Positions 20,237-60,166 of a stretch of DNA of 64,000 bases are shown one piece after another. The notes under the pieces were generated by a model. The model saw nothing but the letters and a program-made list of their open reading frames with translations, was not told the DNA's origin and did not search any database. Made by a program: the position numbers and the translations under genes. Every line of letters begins with the position of its first letter. Position 1 is the first letter of the stretch. The DNA comes from an uncultured archaeon (lineage in GTDB: Archaea; Thermoproteota; Bathyarchaeia; Bathyarchaeales; Bathycorpusculaceae): assembly GCA_938023865.1 (NCBI GenBank), contig CALJDG010000048.1:26515-90514 (forward strand), given 5' to 3'.

Positions 20237-21477
20237 TCAGCAGTGTATATCGTGCTCTTCGCTTTTGACCTTCGTAATGAATTGCTTCAGCGTCATCATA
20301 CCTATGTTCCCAAAACCATGTCTTCTGACAGAAACCTTTTTGGCTTTTAATTCACGTTTACCGAGGATTATCATATAAGGGATTTTCTGAACTTCAGCTT
20401 CCCTAATCTTATAATTAATTGTTGACTGACTTTCGTCAATTTCTGACCTAACTCCATTTGACTCAAGTTTTCATGGATTTTCTTAGCGTATGACAAGTAT
20501 CTGCCTCCCACGGGTAATATTTGCACCTGCACTGGTGAAAGCCAAAGCGGAAGATTGCCCTTAAAATGTTCGAGAAGTAGGGCGAAGAATCTTTCTATTG
20601 TCCCGAGGAGGGCTCTATGAATCATGATTGTCCAGTGTTCCTTTCCATCTGGACCCACATATGTTACATTGAAGCGTTTTGGAAGGTTAAAGTCAAACTG
20701 GATTGTTGAGCATTGCCACTTTCTTCCAGAGGCATCCTCTATGTAAAGGTCGATTTTCGGACCGTAGAATACGGCTTCTCCGGGCATCTCCTTGCACTTT
20801 AGTCCTTTCTTTTTTAGGGCTTTTGCCAATGCTTTTTGAGCTTGGCTCCATTCTTCATCAGAACCCATGTATCTTTCTGGCTGGCTTTCATCTCTGGTTG
20901 ATAGAAACACCTCATATTTGTGGAAGCTGAAACATTTGAGGATGCGCTCTGTAAAGTCCAAGAGTTTTAGGATTTCGTCTTCCATTTGTTCTGGTGTGCA
21001 GAAGATATGGGCGTCGTCTTGTGTTAACCCTCTAACCCGTAATAGTCCGTGCAGTGCGCCGGAGTGTTCATATCTGTAGACGGTTCCCCATTCTGCGTAT
21101 CTTATTGGCAGTTCTTTGTAGCTTCTGGGTTTTGCCTTGTATATTTGTATGTGGAAGGGGCAGTTCATAGGTTTAACAACGTAAAGTTCACCGTCCTTCT
21201 CGAAAGTGTACATGTTTTCCCTATAATAATCCAAGTGTCCGGAAATTTTCCAAGGTTCTCCTCTTGCAATGTGTGGAGTACAGACGAGCTCGTAGCCGCC
21301 TTTAATGTGTTCTTCCTCCCAGAAGTTTCTGATTATCCTTCGAACAGTTGTGCCTCTCGGGTGCCAAAGCACTAGACCTACACCAACATCTTCGTTTATA
21401 GAGAACATATCCAAGCGTTGGCCGAGAACTCTATGGTCTATGTCCAAATGCTCTTTTGTTTGCGCTTTGTTTTCCAA
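20237..21477 (-). pseudogene. thrS: Threonyl-tRNA synthetase, catalytic plus anticodon-binding type without N-terminal editing domain; apparent -1 nt frameshift at 20468-20471
   Basis: ORF track frame (20371-21477) encodes class II ThrRS core (VVKPMNCPFHIQIYK, YRYEHSGALHGLLRVRGLTQDDAHIF, TIMIHRALLGTIERFFALLLEHFKG). After one extra A in the AAAA run the C-terminus reads HEKLESNGVRSEIDESQSTINYKIREAEVQKIPYMIILGKRELKAKKVSVRRHGFGNIGMMTLKQFITKVKSEEHDIHC*. Possibly functional if the deletion is a sequencing error. Confidence 0.85.
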
Positions 21478-21590
21478 AATTTCAGCGGGGCTTTTAGGGG
21501 CTGGATTTTCGCTTACAAAACGTTTAGACTTGTGTTTCTAAATACCCCATTTCAACCACAAAGTCAACAAGTGCCGCGGTTCTATTTATC
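21478..21590 (-). promoter_or_regulatory. thrS leader: TATA-like box, 8-codon uORF (21524-21550, MGYLETQV*), potential hairpin
   Basis: Minus-strand GGATAAATAG, then GTGGTTGAAATGGGGTATTTAGAAACACAAGTCTAAAC; GGGGTATTTAG pairs with downstream CTAAAAGCCCC with one mismatch. Confidence 0.5.
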
Positions 21591-58567: not shown

Positions 58568-58723
58568 TTTAAATAATCTGATTGCGTTTTTAGGATGCGA
58601 GTGGTTTAAAATGGGCGATTACGTTCCACCTTGCTAAACTTCTCCGAAAAGCGCCCAGCATAAAAACTAGCTTCGCACTAAAATTATATTCAACAAACAA
58701 CCAGAAGCAGAGGAGAGGATAAA
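58568..58723 (+). promoter_or_regulatory. proS leader: TATA-like box, 8-codon uORF (58611-58637, MGDYVPPC*), potential hairpin
   Basis: TTTAAATAAT near 58568-58577; GTGGTTTAAAATGGGCGATTACGTTCCACCTTGCTAAAC; TGGGCG (58612-58617) pairs with CGCCCA (58652-58657). Confidence 0.5.
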
Positions 58724-60166
58724 ATGTCAGATTTAGGAATAACTGTCAAAAAGTCTGAGGACTTTTCCGAATGGTACACTCAAGTTGTGCTGAAATCTGG
58801 CCTCGCAGATTATGCGCCGATAAAAGGATGTATGATCTTCAGAGAGCTTTCATATGCCATATGGGAGAGAATCCAAGAAATCTTCAATGAGAAAATAAAG
58901 CGGACTGGACATAGAAACGTGTACTTTCCCCTCTTCATACCTGAGAGCTTTCTAAAGAAGGAGGCGGAACACTTCGCTGGCTTTGTACCAGAGGTTGCAT
59001 GGATAACTATTGGCGGGGATACACCATTAGAAGAGAAACTCGCCATAAGACCAACATCAGAAACAATAATTTACGCGACATACGCTAAATGGATCAGAAG
59101 TTGGAGAGACCTACCGATCAAGCTGAATCAATGGTGCAGTGTCGTAAGGTGGGAGACAAAAGCCACTAAACTTTTCCTCAGAACGAGGGAATTCTTGTGG
59201 CAGGAGGGACACACAGCCCACGCGACAAAGGAAGAGGCAGATAAAGAAGTTATGGAAATTCTTAACGAATACAAAGACTTGATGGAAAATTACTTGGCTA
59301 TTCCAGTGCTGGTCGGCATAAAAACTGAAAGCGAAAAGTTTGCTGGAGCCCTTTACACAACAACGTTGGAAGCCATAATGCCAGATGGTAAAGCACTGCA
59401 AATGGGTACATCCCACAATCTTGGACAAAACTTCTCAAAAGTTTTTGACATCAAATTCATAGGCGAGGACGAAAGGGAACATTATGTTTGGCAAACTTCG
59501 TGGGGCATATCAACACGGATTATAGGTGCATTAGTCATGGTTCACGGCGACGACAAAGGACTCATCATACCGCCAAGAATAGCCCCAATACAAGCCGTGA
59601 TAATTCCCATACCTTATAAAGAAGCTGACACAAGCGCAATATTCACAAAAGCAAGAGAAATCCATGAAAAACTACAAGAGGCAGGAATTTCCACGATCTT
59701 TGATGACAGGAAAGAGTATACTCCAGGATGGAAGTTTAACGACTGGGAGCTAAAAGGCGTGCCGCTGCGAATTGAGATAGGACCAAGAGACGTGAAACAA
59801 AGACAAGTAACAATTGCGAGGAGGGACACGCCTGAAAAACAAGTTGTAAAAGAAGAGAAACTCATTGAAACAGTGCAACAACTTTTAGAGGCAATCCAGA
59901 TCAACCTATTCAGCAAAGCCAAAAAGTTCTTGGAAGAGATGATAACTCCAGTAAAAGCTTACGACGATTTCAAACAAGTTTTAAAGGAAAAAGGCGGATT
60001 CATAAAGGCTTCATGGTGCGGTAGCCAAGAATGTGAGGGAAAAATAAAGGAGGAGACAAGCGCAACCATCAGGCTTATCCCGTTTGAAAAGGAAGAACCA
60101 TCCTCCAACTGCATTTACTGCGGAGAGAGAGCGAAAGAGGTGGTTTACTTCGCCAAACCATACTAG
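58724..60166 (+). CDS. proS: Prolyl-tRNA synthetase (archaeal/eukaryotic type)
   Basis: 480 aa; FSEWYTQVVLKSGLADYAPIKGCMIFR, LAIRPTSETIIYATYAKWIRSWRDLPIKLNQWCSVVRWE, FLRTREFLWQEGHTAHAT, SAMGTSHNLG-like QMGTSHNLGQNFSKVF. Confidence 0.97.
   Translation: MSDLGITVKKSEDFSEWYTQVVLKSGLADYAPIKGCMIFRELSYAIWERIQEIFNEKIKRTGHRNVYFPLFIPESFLKKEAEHFAGFVPEVAWITIGGDTPLEEKLAIRPTSETIIYATYAKWIRSWRDLPIKLNQWCSVVRWETKATKLFLRTREFLWQEGHTAHATKEEADKEVMEILNEYKDLMENYLAIPVLVGIKTESEKFAGALYTTTLEAIMPDGKALQMGTSHNLGQNFSKVFDIKFIGEDEREHYVWQTSWGISTRIIGALVMVHGDDKGLIIPPRIAPIQAVIIPIPYKEADTSAIFTKAREIHEKLQEAGISTIFDDRKEYTPGWKFNDWELKGVPLRIEIGPRDVKQRQVTIARRDTPEKQVVKEEKLIETVQQLLEAIQINLFSKAKKFLEEMITPVKAYDDFKQVLKEKGGFIKASWCGSQECEGKIKEETSATIRLIPFEKEEPSSNCIYCGERAKEVVYFAKPY

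Follow-up and report, generated by a model that had tools for sequence, protein, structure and literature searches.

The thrS and proS leaders

The window, that is, the whole stretch of 64,000 nucleotides analyzed here, is part of an archaeal genome (G000; 1.65 Mb in 115 contigs) and carries a thrS gene on the minus strand and a proS gene on the plus strand. The thrS gene (20371–21477, minus strand) encodes a threonyl-tRNA synthetase (ThrRS; TIGR00418) that lacks the N-terminal editing domain, and the product of proS is a full archaeal-type prolyl-tRNA synthetase (ProRS; TIGR00408). Each gene is preceded by a short uORF. The first-pass annotation had described an 8-codon uORF with a Thr codon at position 6 upstream of thrS and one of equal design with a Pro codon at position 6 upstream of proS, and both were recovered, at 21550–21524 (minus strand) and 58611–58637 (plus strand), respectively. 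The parts of the thrS leader are as follows.

21582–21590, minus strand: TATA box of the leader promoter (GATAAATAG), 40 nt 5' of the uORF ATG
21554–21559, minus strand: SD-like GTGGTT of the uORF (GTGGTT, GAGGTT, or GGTGTT in homologs)
21524–21550, minus strand: zero-frame uORF, ATG GGG TAT TTA GAA ACA CAA GTC TAA (MGYLETQV, then stop)
21532–21538, minus strand: proposed +1 slip site, GAA_ACA_C (putative slippage)
20371–21537, minus strand: +1 frame, with no stop from the uORF into ThrRS (388 aa in the window)

The proS leader and gene comprise the following parts.

58568–58575, plus strand: P1 TATA box (TTTAAATA), 43 nt 5' of the uORF ATG
58601–58606, plus strand: SD-like GTGGTT of the uORF
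58611–58637, plus strand: zero-frame uORF, ATG GGC GAT TAC GTT CCA CCT TGC TAA (MGDYVPPC, then stop)
58623–58629, plus strand: proposed +1 slip site, GTT_CCA_C (putative slippage)
58624–58722, plus strand: +1 frame (FHLAKLLRKAPSIKTSFALKLYSTNNQKQRRG, then stop), ending 4 nt 5' of the proS ATG
58684–58689, plus strand: candidate second promoter P2 (TTATAT), 40 nt 5' of the proS ATG
58712–58718, plus strand: SD of proS, GGAGAGG, within the end of the +1 frame
58724–60166, plus strand: proS, prolyl-tRNA synthetase (TIGR00408, 632.7 bits versus a cut-off of 437)

What had been labeled a GGATAAATAG box is best read as an archaeal TATA box. In thrS homologs, AATAAATAG or GATAAATAG lies at about equal distance from the uORF, and in all 34 proS leaders measured, the spacing from the P1 TATA box to the ATG is 40 to 44 nt. 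Based on these spacings, leader transcripts would start approximately 10 to 13 nt 5' of the uORF ATG, and the thrS transcript approximately 10 nt 5' of it. A GTGRTY box (proS) or GTGGTT/GAGGTT/GGTGTT (thrS) is conserved 3 to 4 nt 5' of the uORF, and these boxes could act as SDs, GTGRTY being able to pair with GAUCAC in the 3' end of the 16S rRNA of a relative, G008 (GGATCACCTCCT).

In most leader-bearing loci, a TTATAT motif like P2 precedes the proS ATG by 37 to 41 nt, and in four relatives without the uORF (L050, L061, L064, and L066) by 38 to 40 nt; one locus (L043) has retained the P2 DNA motif, though its reading frame through P2 differs. TTATAT is likely a second promoter of proS. ProRS need not depend on the leader, since the proS start is served by an SD and a candidate promoter of its own.

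Two ThrRS-like genes are present in G000, namely a 633-aa frame on contig C113 (C113:7076–8068) and the short type found in the window, which has no editing domain and is the one proposed to depend on frameshifting. The reading frame of the window thrS is lost near the C terminus (20371–20480, minus strand), and the conserved anticodon-binding region carries on in another frame (...RSEIDESQSTINYKIREAEVQKIPYM...); this loss reflects either a genuine mutation or a fault in the assembly.

Distribution of the leaders in related genomes

Both uORFs recur 5' of the orthologous proS and thrS genes in relatives across one archaeal order. A pattern in which codons 4 and 6 were free and codons 5, 7, and 8 were fixed at one base each gave 45 matches in 101 related genomes, all but seven of which were of the proS type (GTTCCAC) or the thrS type (GAAACAC); because the leaders share descent, these and the other leader counts are not independent. 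The motif was not found at random positions, and codon 6 matched the enzyme, so the refuting outcome named in the first-pass annotation did not occur. With codons 4 to 8 all free and an upstream AGTGRTY box required, 34 matches were found in 165 genomes, 33 of them of the proS type. The thrS type of the window was found in only 15 of 165 genomes of the order.

Across the class, 42 of 260 genomes matched with the stop in register, compared with 4 of 260 in a control with the stop displaced by one base. Three of the four control matches were inspected, and none was a leader; two of the 42 in-register genomes (G096 and G092) have matches that do not resemble leaders. Codons 4, 7, and 8 of the uORF vary widely, and the stop is TAA, TGA, or TAG depending on the species, with the register fixed. 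This pattern of variation suggests that the uORF is translated in frame. The amino acids at codons 4, 7, and 8 differ so widely that the nascent peptide is unconserved, which speaks against an arrest peptide. Judged from the sequences compared, the recurrence of the uORF is not a matter of chance.

The proS cassette occurs in four families (f1, f4, f6, and f7), all of the same order, and none was found in the other orders sampled within the class. When the strict pattern was run over 85,488 GTDB species genomes, 25 contigs were returned, all named Bathyarchaeota or Bathyarchaeia except one named Thermoplasmatota. The latter (L105) carries a proS with a Bathyarchaeia-type leader and the same +1 frame, and it is either a wrongly binned contig or the result of a transfer. 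Six proS orthologs within the same family (L048, L049, L050, L061, L064, and L066) are without the leader, which implies repeated loss, or gain, of the cassette there.

The first-pass annotation had proposed a modular family of synthetase leaders with swapped specificity codons. This holds for the pair, but in the genomes scanned, the family consists only of proS and the second thrS: no third synthetase or other gene with the cassette was found with the codon-6-free pattern (101 genomes) or with the pattern in which codons 4 to 8 were free (165 genomes). A scan of G008 (1.556 Mb) for a short ORF with a TATA box and a +1 frame that enters a long ORF or extends as far as one gave 15 matches, of which only proS fits; four of the others were inspected, one being a tRNA gene and none being of the cassette design. 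The uORFs of one proS (L053) and one thrS (L012) are identical at 19 of 27 bases, which suggests that the proS and thrS leaders may be paralogous.

A conserved +1 reading frame

The decisive feature, which the first-pass annotation had missed, is a conserved open +1 frame, which continues into ThrRS in one leader type and terminates at the proS start in the other. Between the uORF stop and position −7 of the start, 35 of 35 distinct proS leaders are free of stops in the +1 frame, compared with 7 of 35 in the zero frame and 0 of 35 in the +2 frame, and the +1 stop always falls between −7 and +23 relative to the proS ATG. By shuffling, the mean chance of an open frame was 0.18 per leader (first 29 leaders). 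The +1 peptides are recognizably related across leaders (e.g., FHIAKFSRNLAHIRICSTLELYSTTKEKGER), and pN/pS is 0.49 in the +1 frame versus 0.86 and 1.04 in the other two frames; when the P2 region is left out, the corresponding values are 0.45 versus 0.68 and 1.34. Only the +1 frame thus shows coding-like substitution.

Of 14 distinct thrS leaders, 12 have a +1 frame that continues without interruption into ThrRS, for a total of 427 to 437 aa in most intact homologs. In the aligned thrS extension, gaps are multiples of three, and changes are least frequent at codon position 2 and most frequent at position 3. The pN/pS values for the +1 and +2 frames are 0.59 and 0.61, respectively, a ratio that alone does not separate the two frames. 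Leaders with TTA at codon 4 have TAG there in the +1 frame, so that entry into this frame is possible only from codon 5 on. Taken as a whole, the uORF is very probably the zero-frame part of a conserved +1 frameshift cassette, as judged from the reading frames compared.

One could suppose instead that ThrRS starts at a non-AUG codon and that ProRS is made from its own promoter only, with the open +1 frame being a by-product of other constraints. Some thrS genes do have an in-frame TTG, GTG, or ATG, and candidate P2 is conserved at a distance of 37 to 41 nt from the proS ATG, in relatives lacking the uORF as well. However, the thrS start candidates differ in place and kind, and the annotated-style start of the window thrS, the TTG at 21477, is not conserved among homologs. 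In three homologs (L014, L015, and L019), no ATG, GTG, or TTG precedes the DHR motif of the ThrRS catalytic domain, and likewise none was seen in two others (L129 and L133) in the sequences before the catalytic domain; L133 has GCG at the site where its sister L018 has GTG. For proS, a by-product would leave unexplained why all 35 +1 frames are open to the start and appear coding-like also outside P2. We regard this explanation as very improbable.

An artefact, that is, indel errors in metagenome assemblies or else transcriptional slippage, is the least credible of the alternatives, its probability being close to negligible. The genomes are indeed mostly metagenome-assembled, and the window thrS and two homologs (L016 and L020) have indels in or near A-runs. 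Yet dozens of independent assemblies show the same relation between the frames, with the stop in a fixed register, as the displaced-stop control illustrates, and the shift site contains no homopolymer run. The one-base indels in L016 and L020 break the thrS +1 fusion; together with L139 and L141, these are thrS copies that carry either a one-base indel in the leader or stops in the gene body. In view of these lesions and of the break in the window thrS, some copies may be misassembled, or the second ThrRS may be in decay in some lineages.

The proposed slip site and codon 6

Codon 5 of the 39 usable proS leaders is mostly GTT; ATT and CTT occur rarely, only base 1 varying, and codon 6 is CCA throughout; the regular expression used for this set required NTT CCA, and an orthology-based set showed no other type. 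The search with codons 4 to 8 free gave one leader (L242) in which codon 6 is CCG, a synonymous Pro codon, and in which the +1 frame is still open to the proS start. In thrS, GAA_ACA is kept in 14 of 14 distinct leaders. Codon 6 is thus cognate to the enzyme in every real leader, with one cognate codon only, at the fixed position 6.

The first-pass annotation also missed that codon 5 is swapped alongside codon 6. The Pro version has C at base 1 of codon 6 and GTT at codon 5, where the Thr version has A and GAA, a coupled swap that re-pairing upon slippage would demand. Re-pairing at +1 (NTT_C and GAA_A) would retain the pairs at positions 2 and 3 with tRNA-Val(GAC) and tRNA-Glu(UUC), both of which were found in G008. 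For Pro and Thr, CCA and ACA are the most frequent codons and should therefore be slow only under starvation. Within the genes of one relative, in-frame GTTCCAC was seen 31 times with 36 expected, and in-frame GAAACAC 74 times with 68 expected, so neither heptamer is avoided; the heptamer alone is therefore not very shifty, and real starvation or an extra stimulator would be needed. An internal SD approximately 3 nt before the slip codon is absent, the nearest G-run (GGG/GGGG) being 6 to 7 nt before codon 5.

The main rival to slippage at codon 5 is a programmed +1 frameshift at the uORF stop (NNC_TRA), as in prfB and antizyme, with codon 6 tuning a device that senses termination rather than charged tRNA. 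In its favor, nearly every leader has a stop at codon 9, codon 8 mostly ends in C, and many thrS leaders have CCC_TAA or CCC_TGA, CCC_UGA being a known +1 site (PMC5009743). Re-pairing there would be inconsistent, however, because codon 8 (GTC, CTC, TCC, or ATA) and the stop (TAA, TGA, or TAG) vary freely, and the +1 frame of one leader (L046) reaches the proS start even though its codon 9 is not a stop. Slippage at the stop also leaves the invariant TT_CCA and AA_ACA and the cognate match unexplained. Weakened by L046 and by the free variation of codon 8 and stop, it is an unlikely explanation.

Base pairing in the leaders

The first-pass annotation implied a mechanism based on RNA pairing and attenuation, which is not the best explanation of the leaders. 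In classical ribosome-mediated attenuation, there would be no frameshift, and a stall at codon 6 would alter pairing, either of GGGS with GCCC/CCCC or of an anti-SD with the proS SD. Consistent with this, many leaders have a C-rich block farther downstream with which ATGGGS can pair, some of them with matched GGGC/GGGU changes, and the stretch after the uORF stop pairs with the proS SD with a mean of −7.4 kcal/mol. This value is barely better than that of swapped leaders (−6.9) or of another segment (−7.2), and the GGGS hairpin is gone in several species. Moreover, attenuation explains neither the conserved +1 coding frame nor the thrS genes without a start codon, and there is a single cognate codon, not a run of several. 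We consider attenuation highly unlikely. The pairing of an anti-SD with the proS SD, being no better than in swapped leaders, was dropped.

The GGGS:CCC hairpin is real in many leaders, though not universal, and could possibly be a modulator. In thrS, the GGGG:CCCC pairing pointed out in the first-pass annotation reaches 10 of 11 positions in 7 of 14 leaders but is weak or lost in others, and the blocks said to be shared after the uORF (CGAAAA, C-rich, and TAAAA) turned out not to be conserved. In L041 to L080, ATGGGS (leader nt 1–8) can pair with a downstream block at approximately nt 35 to 49. In family f6, AATGGGTG pairs with CACCCATT, which would hide the uORF start; this pairing is lost in some species.

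Searches with Rfam gave no match at the gathering score in the window, and over the proS leader there was none even with the E cut-off relaxed to 1. A T-box was rejected, as there was no match to the T-box covariance model.

A proposed switch controlled by charged tRNA

We propose, with a probability of roughly 0.75, that both leaders act, through +1 frameshifting, as autoregulatory switches responsive to charged tRNA; that slippage occurs, where it occurs, that it depends on tRNA, and that proS is re-initiated are steps that we infer from sequence comparison. Ribosomes would start at the uORF ATG and advance to codon 5. If Pro-tRNA (proS) or Thr-tRNA (thrS) is plentiful, codon 6 would be read, translation would stop at codon 9, and the transcript would yield no synthetase. 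If the cognate charged tRNA is scarce, the A site would be empty at codon 6, and the codon-5 tRNA would slip by +1. For proS, tRNA-Val would move from GUU to UUC with the Pro codon CCA waiting in the A site, and for thrS, tRNA-Glu would move from GAA to AAA with the Thr codon ACA waiting there.

The outcome of the shift would differ between the two genes. In thrS, the shifted ribosome would make ThrRS as one fused protein. In proS, it would read approximately 31 more codons, stop at the proS start, and re-initiate there; P2, the candidate second promoter, probably gives basal ProRS. Thus framed, the leaders probably constitute a natural hungry-codon switch for two synthetases, in which the slip codon and the sensor codon have been swapped together to change specificity.

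Comparison with known recoding and leader systems

The closest parallel is prfB, the gene for bacterial release factor 2 (CUU_UGA_C), which, like thrS, has a short zero-frame ORF with the remainder of the enzyme encoded in the +1 frame (PMC5009743, PMC12421855). In prfB as in the proposed switch, the P-site tRNA re-pairs at +1 next to a slow A-site codon, and the amount of gene product determines how slow that codon is (PMC5009743, PMC12421855). In contrast to bacterial prfB, the present leaders are archaeal, and the role of slow codon would fall to a sense codon whose tRNA is charged by the enzyme. The synthetase leaders also lack an internal SD 3 nt before the slip codon. Furthermore, the +1 frame of proS ends at the gene start instead of encoding the gene, whereas that of thrS encodes the enzyme. 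On this comparison, the switch would work like prfB but would sense charged tRNA, and it would do so without the internal SD spacing of prfB.

The yeast +1 site of Ty1 and ABP140, CUU_AGG_C, resembles the leaders in combining a P-site slip with a slow sense codon in a heptamer of the form NYY_NNN_C (PMC5009743). The Ty1 codon is intrinsically rare and its effect constitutive, whereas CCA and ACA in the leaders are the commonest codons of their kind, such that slowing would need starvation. Hungry-codon frameshifting, described by Gallant, Weiss, and colleagues in starved Escherichia coli, is likewise promoted by a missing A-site aminoacyl-tRNA, but there it is known as an error, and the leaders would represent a regulatory use. 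Atkins et al. noted in 2016 that hungry-codon shifts could make starvation proteins but that no examples were known (PMC5009743).

Bacterial leader-peptide attenuation and T-box control of synthetases likewise use a cognate leader codon to sense tRNA charging. The present leaders differ in having no Rfam match, in using one codon, and in that the output would be set by reading frame and not by an RNA switch. Recoding in an archaeal cellular gene also occurs in fucA1 of Saccharolobus, but that case is a −1 shift and is unlinked to aminoacyl-tRNA. According to a 2021 review of archaeal recoding, the −1 shift of fucA1 is the only cellular case, and +1 shifting was recorded only in a haloarchaeal virus (PMC8211752). 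Among open-licence papers, we found no report of frameshifting in the control of synthetases.

Starvation frameshifting has been studied for decades as ribosome error, and this locus offers two possibly paralogous candidates that follow a clear logic, with a testable site. If the proposed switch is real, starvation frameshifting would for the first time have a regulatory use, and archaeal cellular genes would have their first programmed +1 frameshift, extending archaeal recoding beyond the one −1 case on record (PMC8211752). It would also mean that thrS genes of this type are mis-annotated at their 5' ends and can pass for pseudogenes. Beside T-boxes, attenuators, and protein–RNA autoregulation, this would be a fourth way of matching synthetase supply to tRNA charging.
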